In this document: one piece after another, positions 22,840-63,935 of the stretch
How the letters are laid out: each line of letters opens with the position of its first letter
Numbering within the stretch: the stretch's first letter is position 1
Source: Desulfobotulus pelophilus
GTDB lineage: Bacteria > Desulfobacterota > Desulfobacteria > Desulfobacterales > ASO4-4
NCBI RefSeq assembly: GCF_026155325.1
Contig: NZ_JAPFPW010000008.1
Coordinates: 1 to 64,000 of the forward strand
Length of the DNA stretch: 64,000 nt
Direction: 5' to 3'
Notes under the pieces: generated by a model
Seen by the model: the letters and a program-made list of their open reading frames with translations, nothing else
Databases searched by the model: none
What the model was told of the DNA's origin: nothing
Made by a program: the position numbers and the translations under genes

Positions 22840-23095
22840 CTGTCTTTTGCTCTGCCAGACCTGCCCGAATTTGCCCATAAGTACTTTGGCGCTTCCCTGA
22901 GGCAGGTCCCTGCCTTGGGGCAAGAACCAGAGCCTTCCTCTCCAGTTGCTTTATGATCCGTCGGAACTCGCTCAGGGAGGTTTTGTTCAGAAGCGCTTAT
23001 CAAAAAGAAGGCTTTCGTCTGCCGATCCTGCATGTATCGGCAGACGAAAGCCCCTGTATCTGTATGGCACATGTACAGGGGCTTGATTTTTCAGT
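22840..23095 (-). ncRNA. HEARO / IscB omega-RNA-like element, copy A (divergent, orphan)
   Basis: Read on the minus strand, this spacer carries the core shared with copies B and C: GGAGAGGAAGGCTCTGG (box at 22929-22943), TTGCCCCAAGGCA, GGGAAGC (22891-22897) and GGTCTGGCAGAGC (22849-22861). The GGGTGAAACC box of the other copies is degraded. On the 5' side lie two strong hairpins, with stems 23012-23026/23036-23050 (15 bp) and 23048-23058/23074-23084 (11 bp). These also flank the 3' end of mtaD and could stop its transcription. No protein gene of the IscB/HNH type is adjacent. The family name is from motif memory. Confidence 0.42.
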
Positions 23096-38436: not shown

Positions 38437-40365
38437 ATGAAGCAGGAAACCCACGCCTTTCAGACGGAAGTGAAGCAGATGCTTCACCTCATTATCCATT
38501 CCTTATATTCCAACAAGGAGATTTTTTTACGGGAACTGATCTCCAACGCCTCCGATGCCATTGACAAGCTGAGGTTTAAATCCCAGACGGAACCGGAAAT
38601 ACTTGGAAAAGATACGGATTTTTATATCCGGATCAGGCCGGATAAGGAAAAGAAAACCCTGGTCATTGAAGATAACGGCATCGGTATGAGCTTTGAAGAA
38701 GCCGTTGAAAACCTGGGTACCATTGCCAAGAGCGGCACGGCCGGTTTCATGGAGGCACTGGAAGCCACCCGCAAAGAAGGCCTGCTCACACCGGAGCTGA
38801 TTGGTCAGTTTGGTGTGGGATTTTATTCCTCTTTTATTGTGGCGGAAAAGGTGGTGGTGGAAAGCCGCGCTGCCGGTGCGGAAAAGGGGGTCCGCTGGGA
38901 ATCCGAAGGCAGCGGAGAATACTCTGTAGCCGAGATCGAAAAGGAAGACAGGGGAACCCGTATCACTCTTTTTCTGAAGGAGGGGGAAGAAGGGGACCTC
39001 AGTTTTACCGAAGAATGGACCATTAAGGATATCATCAAGCGTCACTCCGATTTCATAGCCTATCCCATTCTCATGGAAACGGACTCCTACGAGCCTGTTC
39101 CGGAGGAAGAACAGGAAAAGGATGAGGAAGGCAAGGCAAAGGAAACCATGCGCAAGGTGCGCAAGGATGAAACCTTAAATTCCATGAAAGCCATCTGGGC
39201 CAGAAAAAAAGAAGATGTGAAAGAAGAGGAGTATACGGAGTTCTACCGCCATATCTCCAAAAACTGGGATGAGCCTGCAGATAAACTGCATCTTCATCTG
39301 GAAGGGGCTGTGGAGTATGATGTGCTCCTCTTCATTCCCTCCAAAGCGCCCTTTGACCTTTTCCAGAGGGACAGAAGACACGGCCTGCACCTTTACTGCA
39401 AGCGGGTCTTTGTCATGGACGACTGCAAGGAGCTGCTGCCGGAATATTTAGGCTTTATACACGGGGTTGTGGATGCGCCGGATCTGGACCTCAATGTCAG
39501 CCGTGAAATTCTTCAGCAGAACAGCCTTGTACGCAATATCCGTAAAAACATTGTAAAAAGGGTGTTTGATCTTCTCTCTAAAATGGAAGAGGACGCCTAT
39601 CTTTCCTTCTGGAAAGAGTTCGGGCCCATGCTCAAGGCAGGCATTCCCACGGATTTTGACAATAAGGAAAAAATTGCAGGTCTTCTGCGTTATCCCACCA
39701 CAAAGTCCGGAGAAAAACTCAAAGGTCTCAAAGAGTATGTGGAAAACATGGCCGAAGGCCAGGAAGCCATCTACTATCTTTCCGGTGAAAATCTTTCGGC
39801 CCTGATAAACAGCCCCCACCTGGAAGCCCTGAAGGCTAAGGATTATGAGGTTCTGCTCATGACCGATCCGGTGGATGAATGGGTGGTGGACAGCCTGAGG
39901 GAATTTGAGGGGAAACCCCTGAAAAGTGCTGAAAAAGGTGATCTGGAACTGGAAAAGCCTTCTGAAGAGGTGGCCGAAAGCTTTAAGGGACTCTTTGAAT
40001 TTATTCAAAAAGAACTGGACGAGGATGTAAAAGAGGTGAAGGCTTCCGCCCGGCTCAAGGAGTCTGTGGCCTGCCTTTCCGCCGATGCCTTTGCCATGAG
40101 TGCTTTCATGGAAAAGGTGATGCAGGCTTCCGGTCAGGAAATGCCTAAACAAAAAAGGGTGCTGGAGCTGAATACGGCACATCCCGTACTGGAGCGGCTG
40201 AAGGAGCGCTTTACGGCGGATCCGGCAGCCCCTTCCATGAAAGACTGGGCGCTTATGCTCTTTGACCTTGCCGTGGTCAGTGAGGGCGGCCGTATTGAAA
40301 ATCCTTCCCGTTTTTCCAGGATGGTGGGTGAGCTGATGGCTGAAAACCTGTCTGGAAGTAGGTAG
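38437..40365 (+). CDS. htpG: Molecular chaperone HtpG (Hsp90)
   Basis: This 642 aa cytosolic ATP-dependent chaperone is full length. N-terminal GHKL motifs are [34 protein letters not shown] and [14 protein letters not shown]. The middle-domain motif [18 protein letters not shown] and a C-terminal dimerisation domain follow. The ATG at 38437 has GAGGAGAAAAAG upstream. The 279-base upstream region has no recognisable heat-shock operator. Confidence 0.97.
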
Positions 40366-40378
40366 CCGGTTGTGGAGT

Positions 40379-40403
40379 GGGGGCAGGCTTTCAGTCTGCC
40401 CCC
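40379..40403 (+). terminator. Terminator of htpG
   Basis: Hairpin arms GGGGGCAG and CTGCCCCC, followed by GTTTGTCTG, lie 14 bases after the htpG stop. The T-tract is interrupted. Confidence 0.65.
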
Positions 40404-40557
40404 GTTTGTCTGTATGGTAGAGGGCCTTCTCCCGGCCGAACAGGTGGTTGTCAAACAGGTCAGGCTACCCTCTCATGCGGCCTGTAGCGCCTAAGGGAAA
40501 GGTCGGATTCAGAGCCATGAGGTTTATGAATCGTTTATTGGGCATCCGATTCAATCC

Positions 40558-40991
40558 TGTCTGTTCTTGTCATTGTAAATAGACTTGTCCCCATGGGCAA
40601 AGCCGCAGAGGTTTATCCATACCCACCCTGAGAAAGTGGGAGGCTGCAGGTCGCATAATGGCGGAAATGCGTGGTGCCCTTGTGAGGGTTCGGGATTGCT
40701 GCTTTACCAGCAGCCAAACCTGTTCCGGATGCGTCCACGGGCTTGCAAGGCGGCCCCTTTCAGCCCGGTCATAGATCTGTCCGGAATGATCTCCCATGGC
40801 CGGGATGTGAATGCGGCCCTTCATTTGAAAAATCTTGCTGTTTTCAGTACGGCGAGTTCCGCCGTATCCTCAAGCCTGTGGAGAGGAAGGCTCTTATCTT
40901 TGCCGCACAGGGGTGAAACCTTCCCCCCGGGAAGCAGGAAGTCTGCGTCAGGTTACCTGTGGGTAGATTTGGCCAGGTCTGGCAGAACGGT
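40558..40991 (+). ncRNA. HEARO / IscB omega-RNA-like element, copy B (long form, orphan)
   Basis: The core boxes are GGAGAGGAAGGCTCT at 40880-40894, GGGTGAAACC 40911-40920, GGGAAGC 40929-40935, GTAGATTTGG 40963-40972 and CAGAACGG 40983-40990. The 5' end has a hairpin (GTCTGTT 40559-40565 with AATAGAC 40578-40584) followed by GGGCAAAGCCGC. Copy C has the same 5' hairpin and core, but about 240 bases of this copy (roughly 40620-40865) are missing there. That middle part contains further hairpins, such as GGCTGC/GCAGCC. The 3' end stops one base before the spoIID stop codon. The frames inside are not coding. Confidence 0.5.
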
Positions 40992-42530
40992 TTATTCTTC
41001 CATGGCTGCCCAGTGAAGGTGGGGATAGTAGAACAGCAGAATGTCCCGGTAGTCCCTTCCGGCTTCGGCCATTTTCCGTGCCCCCCACTGGCTCATTCCC
41101 ACGCCGTGACCGAATCCTTTCCCCTGAAAATGAAACACTCCCCTTTCATGGTTTATGGAAAAAGCCGTACTTTTCAGATTCATGGGCCCCACGCGGGTAC
41201 GGAAGCGGCCTGCCGGAATGGTTGTTTCCTGGCGGCTGTCTCTGAAAACAAGGAGGTGGACCCTGCCCGAAGGTGTTGTGCCTTCCGGCCGGATGTCCAG
41301 AATACGGCCCATATCCCTCAGCTCAGGTACCATCTGGCGCAGTTCCCTTTCCGAAAAGGAGCATTTCCAGTATCCATGGGGTGTTTCCCGGGTCCAGAAG
41401 TCCATGATGGGTGTGAGATAGGGATAATCCTTACCCCACAGGGCGTCGGCAGCTTCCGTATGGCCGCCGCTGTCCGCATGAAAAGCCGTAAAGGCCGCCG
41501 TTCCTGCCCACACCATCACCTCTCCCCTCGTGGCTGTGACAGCCGCACTGCTTCTGGGATGTTCCCTTTCCGTGGAAAAAACCTGGGAGCGTGTGTCTGA
41601 TTTTACATCATAGGGTTCATATTTTCTTTTTTCCATATGGTGAAGGGCATAGGTACGGGCGGCAACGGCCTGGGCTTTCAGGGCTTCTTCCGGCCATGAA
41701 GGCGGCATTTCCGCGGGTACCACGCCTTTTAGGTAGCTTTCCAGATCCAGTACGTTGACCAGCAGAAGGTGCCCTGCAGTGCTGTGGACCTGAAGGCGGC
41801 CCCTGTGTCTGCGTCCGTTGAGAAGGAAACTTCCATCGGGGCTCCGGATGGACAGGGGCTGACCTGTCGGGCGACCGTTGATGCGGATGCGGCCGCTTCT
41901 GTCCGTATCCAGAATCAGGCTGCTCCCCTTGCAGACTTCCGCATCCGTTACCATGTCTGTAACGGTAAGAGCAGAGCCGGAAATCTGGATACGGCTGGTG
42001 TCAAGGGAAAGGGCCACCCGTATCCCTTCCCGTGCGGTGGAAGGCAGGGTCTGTCGGCCTTGCAGAAATCGCAGAAAGGAACCGGCACTCTGCCTTCTGG
42101 GGTGATCGGGAAAGGCGGTAACAAAGTCTGCAAAGCCCTGAATGGCTTTTTCTTTCCGGCCGGACTGCATGGCAAGGACAGCCTTTTCAAACCGGGCATC
42201 TCCCAGAAGGGGACTTTTGGGATAGGCCGTAAGGAGCCGGTCCAGAGAGGCTGCTGCTTCATCCGTGTTTTCCATATGCAGCGCCTGAATTCGGGCTTCC
42301 ATCCACAGGGCTTTTGCCCGGTCGTCCGGGCTGTCCGATACCGCGGCCCAGGAGCGAAGAATATGGATGGCCAGGGTGTAACGCTGCTCCTCCAGAGCCA
42401 TGGAAAGTTCTTCAGGAAGGGCATGCGCCGAAGACGGGCGGAGAATAATCAAGAGGAAAAAAAGTGTCAGGAGAAAGGGGGATCTGCAAAGGGCGTGCTT
42501 TTTTGCAAAACAAGAGGATTTTTTTGCCAT
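40992..42530 (-). CDS. SpoIID/LytB-domain protein with TPR-like N-terminal region
   Basis: This 512 aa exported protein starts with a basic region and a hydrophobic segment (SPFLLTLFFLLIILRPSSAHA). About 130 residues of TPR-like helices follow (ALWMEARIQALHMENTDEAA, GDARFEKAVLAM). The SpoIID domain has LESYLKGVVPAEMPPSWPEEALKAQAVAARTYAL, HADSGGHTEAADALWG and GKGFGHGVGMSQWGA with its catalytic Glu. SpoIID is a lytic transglycosylase on peptidoglycan stripped of stem peptides. In non-sporulating bacteria this role is in envelope remodelling. The ATG at 42530 is preferred for its ribosome site (AGGAGA). The gene is divergent from the Mla-like operon. Confidence 0.9.
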   Translation of the reverse strand: MAKKSSCFAKKHALCRSPFLLTLFFLLIILRPSSAHALPEELSMALEEQRYTLAIHILRSWAAVSDSPDDRAKALWMEARIQALHMENTDEAAASLDRLLTAYPKSPLLGDARFEKAVLAMQSGRKEKAIQGFADFVTAFPDHPRRQSAGSFLRFLQGRQTLPSTAREGIRVALSLDTSRIQISGSALTVTDMVTDAEVCKGSSLILDTDRSGRIRINGRPTGQPLSIRSPDGSFLLNGRRHRGRLQVHSTAGHLLLVNVLDLESYLKGVVPAEMPPSWPEEALKAQAVAARTYALHHMEKRKYEPYDVKSDTRSQVFSTEREHPRSSAAVTATRGEVMVWAGTAAFTAFHADSGGHTEAADALWGKDYPYLTPIMDFWTRETPHGYWKCSFSERELRQMVPELRDMGRILDIRPEGTTPSGRVHLLVFRDSRQETTIPAGRFRTRVGPMNLKSTAFSINHERGVFHFQGKGFGHGVGMSQWGARKMAEAGRDYRDILLFYYPHLHWAAMEE

Positions 42531-46009: not shown

Positions 46010-46125
46010 TGTTTCAGGAGGGAAATGGCCTGTGGGTATCGCAGGAAAAATGCAAGGAGCCCCATGGGGATTGTTCATAAGAAAAAGGGCTTTTAACTGC
46101 CCGCTTGATATCGGGTTAAATTTCA

Positions 46126-46303
46126 TCTGTTCTTATCATTATGAACAGAATTGTGTCCATCGGCAAAGCCGCCGGAGCGTAAAGTCTGTGGAGAGGAAGG
46201 CTCTGGCCTTTGCCGCAAGGCAAGGGTGAAACCAGCCTCTGGGAAGCAGGAAGTCAGTACCAAAGCAAGCTGTGAGTAGATTTGGGTAGCTCTGACAGAA
46301 CGG
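46126..46303 (+). ncRNA. HEARO / IscB omega-RNA-like element, copy C (compact, orphan)
   Basis: This is the most intact copy, about 180 bases. A 5' hairpin (TCTGTTC 46126-46132 with GAACAGA 46143-46149) is followed by CGGCAAAGCCGCCGG. The core then runs GGAGAGGAAGGCTCT 46190-46204, TTTGCCGCAAGGCAA, GGGTGAAACC 46224-46233, GGGAAGC 46241-46247, GTAGATTTGG 46276-46285 and CAGAACGG 46296-46303. TTGCC...GGCAA and GGTGAAACC are loop/stem parts expected of a folded RNA. The order and spacing match my memory of the HEARO/IscB-associated RNA. The downstream gene is a sigma-54 activator, not a nuclease. Confidence 0.55.
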
Positions 46304-46417
46304 ATGATACCCTTGGCTGCTTATGAAAAAGAAGGCTTGCATAAGCAGGGGACTTTCTATAGGTAGCCCTGAGAATACAATGGATTGTCAACAGCATTCT
46401 TAAGGGCGGAATCTGCC

Positions 46418-59054: not shown

Positions 59055-60521
59055 ATGACTGACAACACGCAGGAGCTGAAAAAGCCCGGTCCCAATGAGC
59101 TGATTATTGATGAGCATCCGGAAGCGCCCAAACAGTCCGGCATGAGTATTCTCATCAAATGCGCCATCGCCCTTGCCTTGGGTATTTTTGTTTACATCCT
59201 TCCCACACCGGACAACCTCTCCCCCGAAGGTCACCGTCTGCTGGCCCTTCTGGTAACGGTTCTTGTTCTCTGGATTTCCGAGGCCATTCCCATCGGTATT
59301 ACCGCTCTCTGCGTGGGTGCGGGTATGATTGCCTTAAAAATTGTGGGCCGAAACGATGCCTGGACCCCCTATGCCAACCCTGCGGTTATGTTCGTACTCA
59401 TGATCATCATGTTCGGGGTGGTATTAAACGAAGTGGGGCTTGCCAAACGTATGATGTATCATCTGTTGCGTATTGCCGGTACCAATGTGAAGAAGCTGAG
59501 CTTTGTACTGGCTGTTGGCTGTACCATGCTGGCCACCATCCTCCATGATGCCACCGTCACCGTTGTCATGGTCTTTGCCTTTGTCCCCGTATTCATGGCC
59601 ATGGGTATGAAGCCGGGAGACGGGCACAAACTGCCCAAGTTTTTCCTCATGCTCATTCCCCTTGCCGCTTCTGCAGGCGGGTTCGGCACCATGATCGGCG
59701 GGGGCCGCAACCCTCTGGCCGTAGAAATTTTGTTCCGCTATACCCGAGATACCACGGGTGTTGGAAAGGTTGTGGGTTTTGTTGAGTACTTTATTATTCA
59801 GTTTCCCCTGAGTCTTTTCACGGGCCTTGCCACATGGGCTGTGGTGTACTTTCTTTTCCGGCCGGAAGAAAAGGAGCTGGTGGGTGTGAAGCTGGAAGAT
59901 CCCGGCCCCATGGGTACGGCGGAGCTGGGGGTGGCCATTGTCTTCCTCGGTGCCTTTGTGCTCTGGTTTCTTGGTGATATCACGGGCTGGCATGTGAGCG
60001 TGGTGGCCGCCATAGCCATGGTGGGTTTTTGTGCGCCGGGCTGGGTATCCTTTAAAACCATCTGTGATAAATTCCCATGGGAATCCTGGATTGTATTTGG
60101 TGCCGGTGTTTCTCTGGGTCTCGCACTGTTGAAAACTGGCGCAGGCCAGTACCTTGCGGAAACCTGTCTGCCAATCCTTGAGGGGCAGGGGTCCTTTGTC
60201 ACCTTCTTTGGTCTGGGCCTTTTCGGTTCTTTCCTTTCCAGCCTCATGAGTAACTCCGCTGCCGTAGCCCTGACCCTGCCCATCACCCTGCCCATGGCGG
60301 ATATGCTGGGCATGTCACCAACGGCCGTAGCCCTTCTCGCACCCATTACTACGTCTTTTATCATGCTGGTTATCGGGTGCCCGCCCACCATCATTGCCTA
60401 TAGTTCTGGCTACTTCACCCAGGTAGATTTCATTAAAGTGGCCGTTCCATGGTGCATCTGTCTCCTTGTGATTGCTGTGCTGGGGGTACTGCTTTACTGG
60501 CCGATGATTGGAGTCTACTAG
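59055..60521 (+). CDS. SLC13/DASS family anion transporter, tandem copy 1
   Basis: This 488 aa transporter has about 11-13 membrane segments. A hydrophilic 30-residue N-terminus precedes the first helix (IKCAIALALGIFVYILP). In place of the first SNT motif it has ILHDATVTVVM; the second reads LMSNSAAVALTLP. A conserved loop is IGGGRNPLAVEILF. It is near-identical over most of its length to the transporter at 61694. An AAGGAG ribosome site precedes the ATG. Dicarboxylate or sulfate are the likely anions, and the choice cannot be made from the sequence. Confidence 0.92.
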   Translation: MTDNTQELKKPGPNELIIDEHPEAPKQSGMSILIKCAIALALGIFVYILPTPDNLSPEGHRLLALLVTVLVLWISEAIPIGITALCVGAGMIALKIVGRNDAWTPYANPAVMFVLMIIMFGVVLNEVGLAKRMMYHLLRIAGTNVKKLSFVLAVGCTMLATILHDATVTVVMVFAFVPVFMAMGMKPGDGHKLPKFFLMLIPLAASAGGFGTMIGGGRNPLAVEILFRYTRDTTGVGKVVGFVEYFIIQFPLSLFTGLATWAVVYFLFRPEEKELVGVKLEDPGPMGTAELGVAIVFLGAFVLWFLGDITGWHVSVVAAIAMVGFCAPGWVSFKTICDKFPWESWIVFGAGVSLGLALLKTGAGQYLAETCLPILEGQGSFVTFFGLGLFGSFLSSLMSNSAAVALTLPITLPMADMLGMSPTAVALLAPITTSFIMLVIGCPPTIIAYSSGYFTQVDFIKVAVPWCICLLVIAVLGVLLYWPMIGVY

Positions 60522-60605
60522 CGGATGATGCCAGGCAATGATTGGAAACGATAACAAAAACAACCGGATCTTTGAAAGGTCCGGTTTCAGAAAAGGAGAC
60601 AGTCT

Positions 60606-61049
60606 ATGGAGCCCATTCGCATCCTTGTGGTGGACGATGAGGTGGATTTTACGGAAATGCTCTGCCTGCGTCTGAAAGAAGTGGGGCATCTGGCCGATGC
60701 CGTTCATGATGGTGAGGCCTGTATGTCCATGCTGGATCAGAAGCCCTATGATGTGCTCGTTCTCGATATCCGTATGCCCGGCATGGATGGCCTGCAGGTA
60801 CTGAGGCAGATCAAGTCGGATCATATCTCAACGGAAGTTATTCTTCTTACGGGGCACGGGTCTACGGAAACCGCCGTGGAGGGCATGAAGCGCGGTGCCT
60901 TTGACTATGCGCTGAAACCCTATGAGTTTACGGAGCTTCTGGAAAAAATTCAGGAAGCCAGAGCCGTAAAGAAGGAGCGGGAAGAGCGTATTCGTAAGGC
61001 GGAGGAGCGTTCCCGCATGGACAGGCTGGAAAAAAATATACGGTTCTGA
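60606..61049 (+). CDS. Single-domain response regulator, tandem copy 1
   Basis: This 147 aa receiver keeps all key residues (LVVDDEVDF, VLVLDIRMPG, LLTGHGS, ALKPYE). The charged tail KKEREERIRKAEERSR ends in LEKNIRF. It matches the gene at 63492 in length and nearly all residues, and lies 84 bases after its transporter. A hairpin (ACCGGA/TCCGGT, 60571-60592) precedes its AAAGGAG ribosome site. Confidence 0.93.
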   Translation: MEPIRILVVDDEVDFTEMLCLRLKEVGHLADAVHDGEACMSMLDQKPYDVLVLDIRMPGMDGLQVLRQIKSDHISTEVILLTGHGSTETAVEGMKRGAFDYALKPYEFTELLEKIQEARAVKKEREERIRKAEERSRMDRLEKNIRF

Positions 61050-61693: not shown

Positions 61694-63157
61694 ATGGGTA
61701 TTCAGGAGGCTCAGGCACCATCGCCCAACCGTGCCATCAGCCACGAGGAGGAACCCTCTGCATCCGGGCAGTCCGGCCGAAGTATTCTCATTAAATGCGC
61801 CATAGCCCTTGCTCTGGGAATCTTTGTTTATCTGCTTCCCACACCGGAAAATCTTAGCCCGGAAGGCCACCGCCTGCTGGCTCTTCTGGTCACCATTCTC
61901 ATTCTCTGGACCACGGAAGCCCTTCCCATTGGTGTCACAGCCCTTTGTGTGGGGGGCGGCATGATAGCGTTGAATATTGTGGGCCGAAACGATGCATGGA
62001 CTCCCTACGCCAATCCTGCTGTGATGTTTGTTCTTATGATCATTATGTTCGGTGTCATATTGAATGAAGTGGGCCTTGCCAGACGGCTCATGTATCATCT
62101 CCTGAAGTTTGCCGGAACCAATGTGAAAAAACTCAGTTTTATTCTGGCTGTGGGCTGCACCCTCACGGCCACCATTCTCCATGATGCCACCGTAACGGTT
62201 ATTATGGTGTTTGCTTTTGTTCCCGTATTCATGTCCATGGGTATGAGGCCGGGTCAGGGGCATAAACTTCCCAAATTTTTTCTTATGCTTATTCCCATGG
62301 CGGCTTCGGCAGGAGGCTTTGGCACCATGATCGGTGGTGGTCGTAACCCTTTGGCCGTGGAAATTCTCTTTCGTTATACGGAGGAAGCCACAGGCGTGGG
62401 TAAGGTGATTGGTTTTTTGGAGTATCTTGTGATTCAGATGCCCATCAGCATTTTTACGGCCATTGCCACCTGGGCTGTGGTGTTTTTTCTTTTCCGGCCG
62501 GAAGAAAAGGAGCTCAAGGGCATTGAGCTGAACAATCCCGGCCCCATGAGTACGGCGGAACTGGGTGTTACCATTGTTTTTATCCTGACTTTTGTGCTCT
62601 GGTTTCTCGGTGATATCACGGGCTGGCATGTGAGTGTGGCGGCCTGTATTGCCATGGTGGGATTCTGCGGACCGGGCTGGGTATCCTTTAAAACCATCTG
62701 TGATAAATTTCCATGGGAATCCTGGATTGTTTTTGGAGCGGGCGTTTCGCTGGGCATGGCCATGCTGCAGACAGGAGCTGGTCAGTTTCTTGCGGAAAGT
62801 CTTCTGCCCATGCTGGAAGGCAGAAGCAGCTTCACCATATTCTATGGGCTGGGTCTTTTCGGTTCTTTTCTTTCCAGTCTGATGAGCAACTCCGCAGCCG
62901 TGGCCCTGACCCTTCCCATAACTCTTCCCATGGCGGATATGCTGGGAATGTCCCCCACGGCCGTGGCTCTGCTGGCACCGGTGACCACTTCTTTCATCAT
63001 GCTGGTTATCGGATGTCCGCCCACCATCATTGCCTACAGCTCCGGTTATTTCACCCAGGTGGATTTCATCAAGGTGGCCGTACCCTGGTGCCTGATTCTG
63101 CTGCTCATATCCGTGGTTGCCGCACTGCTGTACTGGCCCCTCATCGGTATTCATTAG
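61694..63157 (+). CDS. SLC13/DASS family anion transporter, tandem copy 2
   Basis: This 487 aa protein is a close paralogue of the one at 59055. The differences are mostly conservative and concentrated in the N-terminal tail and a few loops. The altered first motif (ILHDATVTVIM) and second motif (LMSNSAAVALTLP) are kept. GGAAAGGAG precedes the ATG. It is followed 18 bases later by a small membrane protein gene and then a receiver gene. Confidence 0.92.
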   Translation: MGIQEAQAPSPNRAISHEEEPSASGQSGRSILIKCAIALALGIFVYLLPTPENLSPEGHRLLALLVTILILWTTEALPIGVTALCVGGGMIALNIVGRNDAWTPYANPAVMFVLMIIMFGVILNEVGLARRLMYHLLKFAGTNVKKLSFILAVGCTLTATILHDATVTVIMVFAFVPVFMSMGMRPGQGHKLPKFFLMLIPMAASAGGFGTMIGGGRNPLAVEILFRYTEEATGVGKVIGFLEYLVIQMPISIFTAIATWAVVFFLFRPEEKELKGIELNNPGPMSTAELGVTIVFILTFVLWFLGDITGWHVSVAACIAMVGFCGPGWVSFKTICDKFPWESWIVFGAGVSLGMAMLQTGAGQFLAESLLPMLEGRSSFTIFYGLGLFGSFLSSLMSNSAAVALTLPITLPMADMLGMSPTAVALLAPVTTSFIMLVIGCPPTIIAYSSGYFTQVDFIKVAVPWCLILLLISVVAALLYWPLIGIH

Positions 63158-63175
63158 AAAAAAGGGAGATTTCCC

Positions 63176-63433
63176 ATGGGTAAAACAGGTGAAGACGCGA
63201 TTTCCCCTCTTGATGAACAACAGAAAGGTGATGGGCACGCCGAAACGGTAAAAAGTGAGGCGGATCATCTGTATGAACTGCTCAGGCCCCTTCATCATCT
63301 GCCCAGGGGAAAAAACACATGGAACCCTGAACTGATTCACAAATCCTGGTTCTGGCCCCTCAGTGTGGCCATTTTAATGGTACTGTACTATCTCTATCCC
63401 CTTTTCTGGGATGTGATTTCAAAAGGTCCATGA
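63176..63433 (+). CDS. Small single-pass membrane protein
   Basis: This 85 aa protein has a charged N-terminal half (about residues 1-55) and one C-terminal helix (FWPLSVAILMVLYYLYPLFW). The ribosome site AAAAGGGAG and its tight position between the transporter and receiver genes support it. It has no counterpart in the first module. It may be a small subunit of the transporter. No family is recognised. Confidence 0.65.
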   Translation: MGKTGEDAISPLDEQQKGDGHAETVKSEADHLYELLRPLHHLPRGKNTWNPELIHKSWFWPLSVAILMVLYYLYPLFWDVISKGP

Positions 63434-63491
63434 AAAGAATTCCCGTTACTTTACACATGGGCAGTTTTTGGCTGCCAAAAAAGGAGAAGCC

Positions 63492-63935
63492 ATGGAGTCC
63501 GTACGTATACTTGTGGTGGACGATGAAGAGGATTTCACGGAAATGCTTTGCCTGAGGCTGGAGGAAGCCGGTTTTTCTGCAGAAGCCGTTCACGATGGTC
63601 AGGCCTGCCTGAAAAAACTGGATGAGAAACCCTATGATGTTCTGATTCTGGATATACGCATGCCCGGTATGGACGGATTGCAGGTATTACGCCAGATTAA
63701 AGCCGATCATATTTTAACGGAGGTGATTCTTCTTACGGGTCATGGATCCGTGGAAACCGCTGTCGAAGGTATGAAGCGGGGAGCCTTTGATTATGCGCTG
63801 AAGCCCTATGATTTTGAGGATCTTATGGATAAAATCAAGGAGGCCGGATCCCTGAAATATGAAAGGGAGCATCGTATCCGTAAAGCAGAAGAGCGCTCCC
63901 GTTTGGACAGGCTGGAAAAAACAATCCGTTTTTAA
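63492..63935 (+). CDS. Single-domain response regulator, tandem copy 2
   Basis: This 147 aa receiver is a near copy of the gene at 60606 (LVVDDEEDF, VLILDIRMPG, LLTGHGS, ALKPYD), with the tail RIRKAEERSRLDRLEKTIRF. The ATG at 63492 has AAAGGAGAAGCC upstream. An in-frame TTG 24 bases earlier is less likely because copy 1 starts at the equivalent ATG. Confidence 0.93.
   Translation: MESVRILVVDDEEDFTEMLCLRLEEAGFSAEAVHDGQACLKKLDEKPYDVLILDIRMPGMDGLQVLRQIKADHILTEVILLTGHGSVETAVEGMKRGAFDYALKPYDFEDLMDKIKEAGSLKYEREHRIRKAEERSRLDRLEKTIRF

Follow-up and report, generated by a model that had tools for sequence, protein, structure and literature searches.

A miniature IS607-family insertion sequence with an internal deletion and a TnpB-type guide RNA, most likely a dormant relic, in Desulfobotulus pelophilus

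A compact, structured element in an intergenic region of Desulfobotulus pelophilus, with no nuclease gene beside it, raises the question as to which family of transposon-borne guide RNAs it belongs to, and whether it is a working guide, a mobile unit or a relic. It lies within the window analysed here, the first 64,000 nucleotides of contig NZ_JAPFPW010000008.1. The initial annotation described it as an element of about 180 bases (46126-46303), resembling the HEARO RNA that guides IscB nucleases, whose sequence boxes recur in two other places of the window. All the listed boxes are present, and one of them, GGAGAGGAAGGCTCT, occurs exactly at three places in all: 46190 (+), 40880 (+) and 22929 (-). 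The compact element, hereafter copy C, is thus real, but its true extent is longer (217 bp, 46087-46303, + strand), and it is very probably a miniature IS607-family insertion sequence with an internal deletion, which carries a TnpB omegaRNA and most likely persists as a dormant relic.

Read from its 5' edge, copy C opens with an IS607 left end (LE; 46087-46140, +) located 5' of tnpA and aligning with copies D, E and B of the same genome. The edge itself, GGGCTTTTAAC, is a motif also found at the ends of copy D (locus L002), of an intact element in another genome of the phylum (G510; left end GGGCTTAACCAG) and of mini-elements in the genome G462 (GG(G)TTTTAAC). The LE is followed by codons 1-11 of tnpA (46141-46173, +), whose translation, MNRIVSIGKAA, corresponds to the MerR-like helix-turn-helix (HTH) with which the IS607 serine transposase begins; the remainder of the gene is deleted. 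The tnpA/tnpB deletion junction is a CCGCC microhomology (46169-46173), recognised by comparison with copies D and E, where the parental sequences read AAAGCCGC on the tnpA side and TTCCGCCGG on the tnpB side. Past the junction lie the last 31 codons of tnpB and the stop codon (VCGEEGSGLCRKARVKPASGKQEVSTKASCE; 46184-46279, +), delineated by tblastn with the G510 TnpB, of which residues 379-404 match copy C with 69% identity (E=3.6e-9). This tnpB tail overlaps both the scaffold of the TnpB guide RNA (omegaRNA/reRNA; 46169-46303, +; 146 bits with covariance model R1, see below), composed of a RAGATH-18-like stem, a second stem-loop and the right end, and the right end itself, CAGAACGG (46296-46303), which is common to most relatives. 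Copy C carries GG(G) at 46087 on the left and GG at 46302 on the right; its exact ends are placed by comparison only, because the locus is rearranged in both sister species and neither offers an empty site. By analogy with published IS607 systems (PMC10711439, PMC11061315), the host flank ATGATACCCTTGGCTGCTTA (46304-46323, +) would occupy the guide position. An alternative coding reading of the conserved box, as VERKAL, was rejected; genomes G287 and G510 show the tnpB frame to be CGEEGSG..VKPASxKQEV.

The IS607 origin of these gene remnants is seen in copy E (L003), in which a broken IS607 tnpA followed by a truncated tnpB lies between the same end sequences as in B, C and D. The 5' piece of copy E that is homologous to copy C encodes MNKLVPADKAAEIFGVSILTLRRWEAEGR.. 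(PF00376, 5e-12; NF033518, 6e-6); its tnpA pieces match PF00376, PF00239 and NF033518 (MerR-like HTH, resolvase), and its truncated tnpB matches PF01385 above the cut-off and NF040570 at 5e-18. The hallmark of TnpA, an HTH joined to a serine recombinase, is thus found as HTH and Resolvase remnants in copy E and as an intact gene in G510, and in both the tnpB sequence lies 3' of tnpA on the same strand. In G510, the intact tnpA stands just 5' of an intact TnpB, an open frame of 418 residues whose C-terminal region contains NAAINLKNMAVSSTVSACGEEGAGLGQKLKVKAASGKQEVNSKPVTG, and this complete element shares its LE motif, its TnpB tail and its RNA with copy C. No intact TnpA or TnpB was found in the D. 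pelophilus assembly, a draft of 86 contigs and 97.7% completeness from which an intact IS607 copy may be missing, and no intact TnpB was found in the sister species G001 either. In the other sister species, G002, three open frames of 510-550 aa (L075, L077 and L078) match the TnpB family model, L075 with a Cas12f1-like TNB domain (PF07282); no R1 match lies beside any of the three.

Two covariance models were used to follow the RNA, R1 built from eight sequences and R2, a stricter one, from the copies of this genus only; as custom models, they give rough E-values. R1 finds the same RNA 117-246 nt beyond the point where the conserved tnpB match stops, at 11 loci retrieved solely for the similarity of their TnpB proteins, from Lonepinella, Okeania, Treponema, Campylobacter, Prevotella, Marithrix and Parabeggiatoa, and it also matches the tnpB ends in G510 and G515. 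The best R2 matches among 35 tnpB-bearing loci (L122, 3e-11; L121, 9e-10; L046, 2.5e-8) are the 3' ends of intact tnpB genes from G515, G510 and a Synergistales genome, the first two genomes having originally been found with R1 and the Synergistales locus by protein. With these models, the RNA of copy C is placed at the 3' ends of intact IS607 elements (tnpA-tnpB) from other genera and phyla. In one Okeania locus (L074:2157-2309), an omegaRNA match on the same strand as the TnpB match precedes it by about 1 kb and is perhaps another orphan copy.

The fold of this RNA is conserved and shows strong covariation: on 31 aligned sequences (alignment A3), 95.1% of cells are paired and both-side changes occur in 16 of 17 pairs, values reached by none of 500 shuffles, while slid controls pair only 38-54%; A3 was fitted to the model, so that the figures lean towards structure, but the contrast is large nonetheless. 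The scaffold pairs are kept to differing degrees among the copies (C, 16/17; D, 17/17; E, 15/17; B, 14/17; A, 9/17), and a homolog of copy C in G001, homolog H, keeps all 17. A putative pseudoknot, in which the 3' loop pairs with nucleotides preceding the guide, would comprise five pairs in copy C. One of these differs from the sister copies by a paired double change; as a single event, this is only suggestive.

In terms of known RNA families, no Rfam family reaches its gathering threshold in the window (cmscan). With E-values up to 10, the best match at copy C is RAGATH-18 (RF03064; 46185-46252), for which copy C is the sole match in its genome and homolog H the best in G001; at 19 and 21.6 bits, respectively, both lie below the gathering score of 44.9 bits, which was counted against the IS607 reading. 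The other Rfam matches (snoR114, PVT1_6, DUF805b, CRISPR-DR36 and RNaseP-T) are at chance level. RAGATH-18 is the scaffold of IS607 TnpB reRNAs, with conserved flanks of ~50 nt and 60 nt and the guide on the 3' side (PMC11061315). Copy C resembles these reRNAs in its position at the tnpB 3' end, its CCUGU..GCAGG stem, its GGA/GAA internal loop and its 3' stem-loop with the guide position after it; it differs in its sub-gathering score and in having no adjoining tnpB. By comparison with the ISFba1 reRNA, which starts after tnpB (PMC11061315), the copy C scaffold overlaps the tnpB tail. A further parallel is with ISXfa1, whose reRNA of ~150 nt extends past the right end and for which a pseudoknot between guide-flanking nucleotides and an apical loop has been proposed; IS607 elements recombine at GG dinucleotides (PMC10711439). 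Copy C fits this layout and, with its ends placed by comparison, would fit the GG crossover sites. It has no genes, whereas ISXfa1 has an intact TnpB that works in E. coli, the two being compared by description. By analogy with these systems, a TnpB omegaRNA/reRNA scaffold such as that of copy C would be transcribed, bound by TnpB and used to guide cleavage.

Copy C is one of about seven such IS607 remnants in its genome, with differing internal deletions. A genome-wide blastn search with copy C recovers D on contig C4 (E=3e-47; 90% identity), E on contig C11 (7e-35; 84%), B (2e-22) and A (3e-9), as well as the fragments F (C9) and G (C10); this similarity is far beyond chance. Copy B (40521-40990, +; left boundary approximate) is a longer remnant with an LE, part of tnpA, tnpB remnants and the scaffold, to which copy C is 84% identical over 49 nt, its left piece (40560-40606) lying ~250 nt upstream. 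Copy A (22847-22964, -) is decayed, retains the 3' end only and is 79% complementary to copy C over 56-57 nt. Copies B, C, D and E have the LE/tnpA start and the tnpB tail/right end (RE) in common. Their scaffold regions are 82-90% alike, compared with 75-80% for the LE/tnpA regions (80% over 85 nt between C and D in the LE region); this greater likeness of the scaffold could reflect selection after insertion or, equally, constraint in the active ancestor. Copies B (window 40340-41014) and C (46018-46359) also coincide exactly with breaks in gene order when compared with the sister species: in each of these, 51-53 kb separates the genes that flank copy C, and the segment to the left of copy B is inverted in G002. 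These breaks fit recombination at IS copies.

In IS607 elements generally, TnpA moves the DNA, and TnpB with its RNA cuts the empty site, so that the element is restored or retained. In the intact element, the serine recombinase TnpA would excise and insert the DNA by crossover at GG dinucleotides, and TnpB would bind an RNA derived from the 3' part of the tnpB gene together with the right end; the host sequence that adjoins the right end would then act as the guide, directing cleavage of the empty site and so maintaining the element in the population. The deletion in copy C, from tnpA codon 11 to the tnpB tail at the CCGCC microhomology, removed both proteins but spared the two ends, the complete RNA scaffold and the guide position. 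Copy C could therefore still be moved by TnpA and load TnpB, both supplied in trans, and is best read as a substrate should the partner proteins return; because neither TnpA nor TnpB is intact in its own genome, it is most likely dormant.

How do other explanations compare? That copy C is a HEARO/IscB omegaRNA left without its nuclease is extremely improbable. The two kinds of RNA share a general character, both being structured, intergenic, transposon-borne nuclease guides, and the genome does contain one weak, full-length HEARO-like match, its only one, elsewhere (C10:13335-13551, equivalent to L032:1501-1717, -; 30.2/83 bits), possibly a decayed HEARO without IscB. But copy C itself gives no HEARO match even at E=10, the window none at gathering, RAGATH-18 is the better, if sub-threshold, family match, and the genome-wide search for iscB with NF040563 returns a single partial match of 25.6 bits against a cut-off of 175, such sub-cut-off matches occurring in 10 of 14 control genomes. 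The nuclease and the RNA differ, with no match in sequence or structure, and the gene side is opposite: HEARO RNA lies 5' of iscB, whereas this RNA lies 3' of tnpB, and the copies bear tnpA/tnpB remnants. What holds of the original proposal is an OMEGA-type RNA without a nearby nuclease, TnpB-type rather than IscB-type. Its suggestion of a relic or non-autonomous mobile unit was right in kind; service in trans is unlikely in a genome that encodes no intact TnpB. A functional solo omegaRNA, transcribed today and used by a TnpB in trans, for example to cleave or silence a chosen site, is very unlikely. The near-intact scaffolds of C, D and H in two genomes without intact TnpB, and the paired double change in the putative pseudoknot, speak for such a role, yet the guide has no second site with up to three mismatches in its own genome (and one 3-mismatch site in G002, about the chance expectation), a promoter/terminator scan found nothing on the element's strand and no forward promoter-like site, and the other copies are visibly decaying.

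A third possibility is that copy C belongs to a MITE family amplified as a miniature by an IS607 TnpA acting in trans. Like type I MITEs of bacterial insertion sequences, it keeps both ends and lacks genes, and its architecture equals that of the apparently amplified mini-elements of G462, an unrelated genus. It differs from type I MITEs in lacking terminal inverted repeats and in not being amplified in its own genome; IS607 elements have neither terminal inverted repeats nor target duplications. In D. pelophilus, no set of copies with identical ends and junction was found: the junction of copy C is unique, and the differing deletions of B, D and E fit separate decay of full-length insertions, so that amplification as a miniature is unlikely here. 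In G462 (loci L097, L099, L100, L102, L103, L105, L106 and L086), by comparison, a junction is shared. The RNA occurs there at eight places: seven stand alone, and at the eighth it terminates a real tnpB that a contig end interrupts; the genome also has tnpB at contig ends. The mini-elements, of ~250 bp, consist of the LE and tnpA codons 1-8 fused to the tnpB tail, the omegaRNA and the RE. At least four of the seven stand-alone copies fuse the tnpA start MVSIGEAA to the tnpB tail (five by eye, one of them with point changes), with GG(G)TTTTAAC or a close variant as left end; of the remaining copies, one has a deeper deletion and one lacks the left end. The G462 version, unlike copy C, resembles a miniature element that carries an omegaRNA and has truly been amplified.

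For copy C, the preferred reading remains an internally deleted, dormant IS607 insertion, and its guide RNA is of an already known kind; the HEARO call is corrected to the TnpB/IS607 guide-RNA family. Such remnants escape Rfam thresholds, yet a model built from few copies finds them easily. Copy C also illustrates how a guide RNA becomes orphaned: since the RNA and the right end overlap, one deletion that leaves both ends in place preserves the RNA as well. It is a rather unlikely, though testable, idea that the omegaRNA kept by gene-less mini-IS607 elements lets them use the TnpB of a partner element in trans, cut their own empty sites and so persist; if true, G462, with its mini-elements of one junction and a tnpB elsewhere, would show this at work today, and copy C would be a stranded equivalent. 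Since the same deletion architecture is apparently amplified in G462, the role of the guide RNA in persistence becomes testable, and whether the RNA makes a difference to elements without genes is a question better put to G462 than to copy C. No IS607 mini-elements with an omegaRNA were recognised in the literature searched, which does not prove that none has been described. Elsewhere in the window, 59133-61045 and 61769-63934 form a tandem duplication of 76-81% identity, whose unit resembles a pair of genes for a sensor and a response regulator and is also present in two copies in G002.
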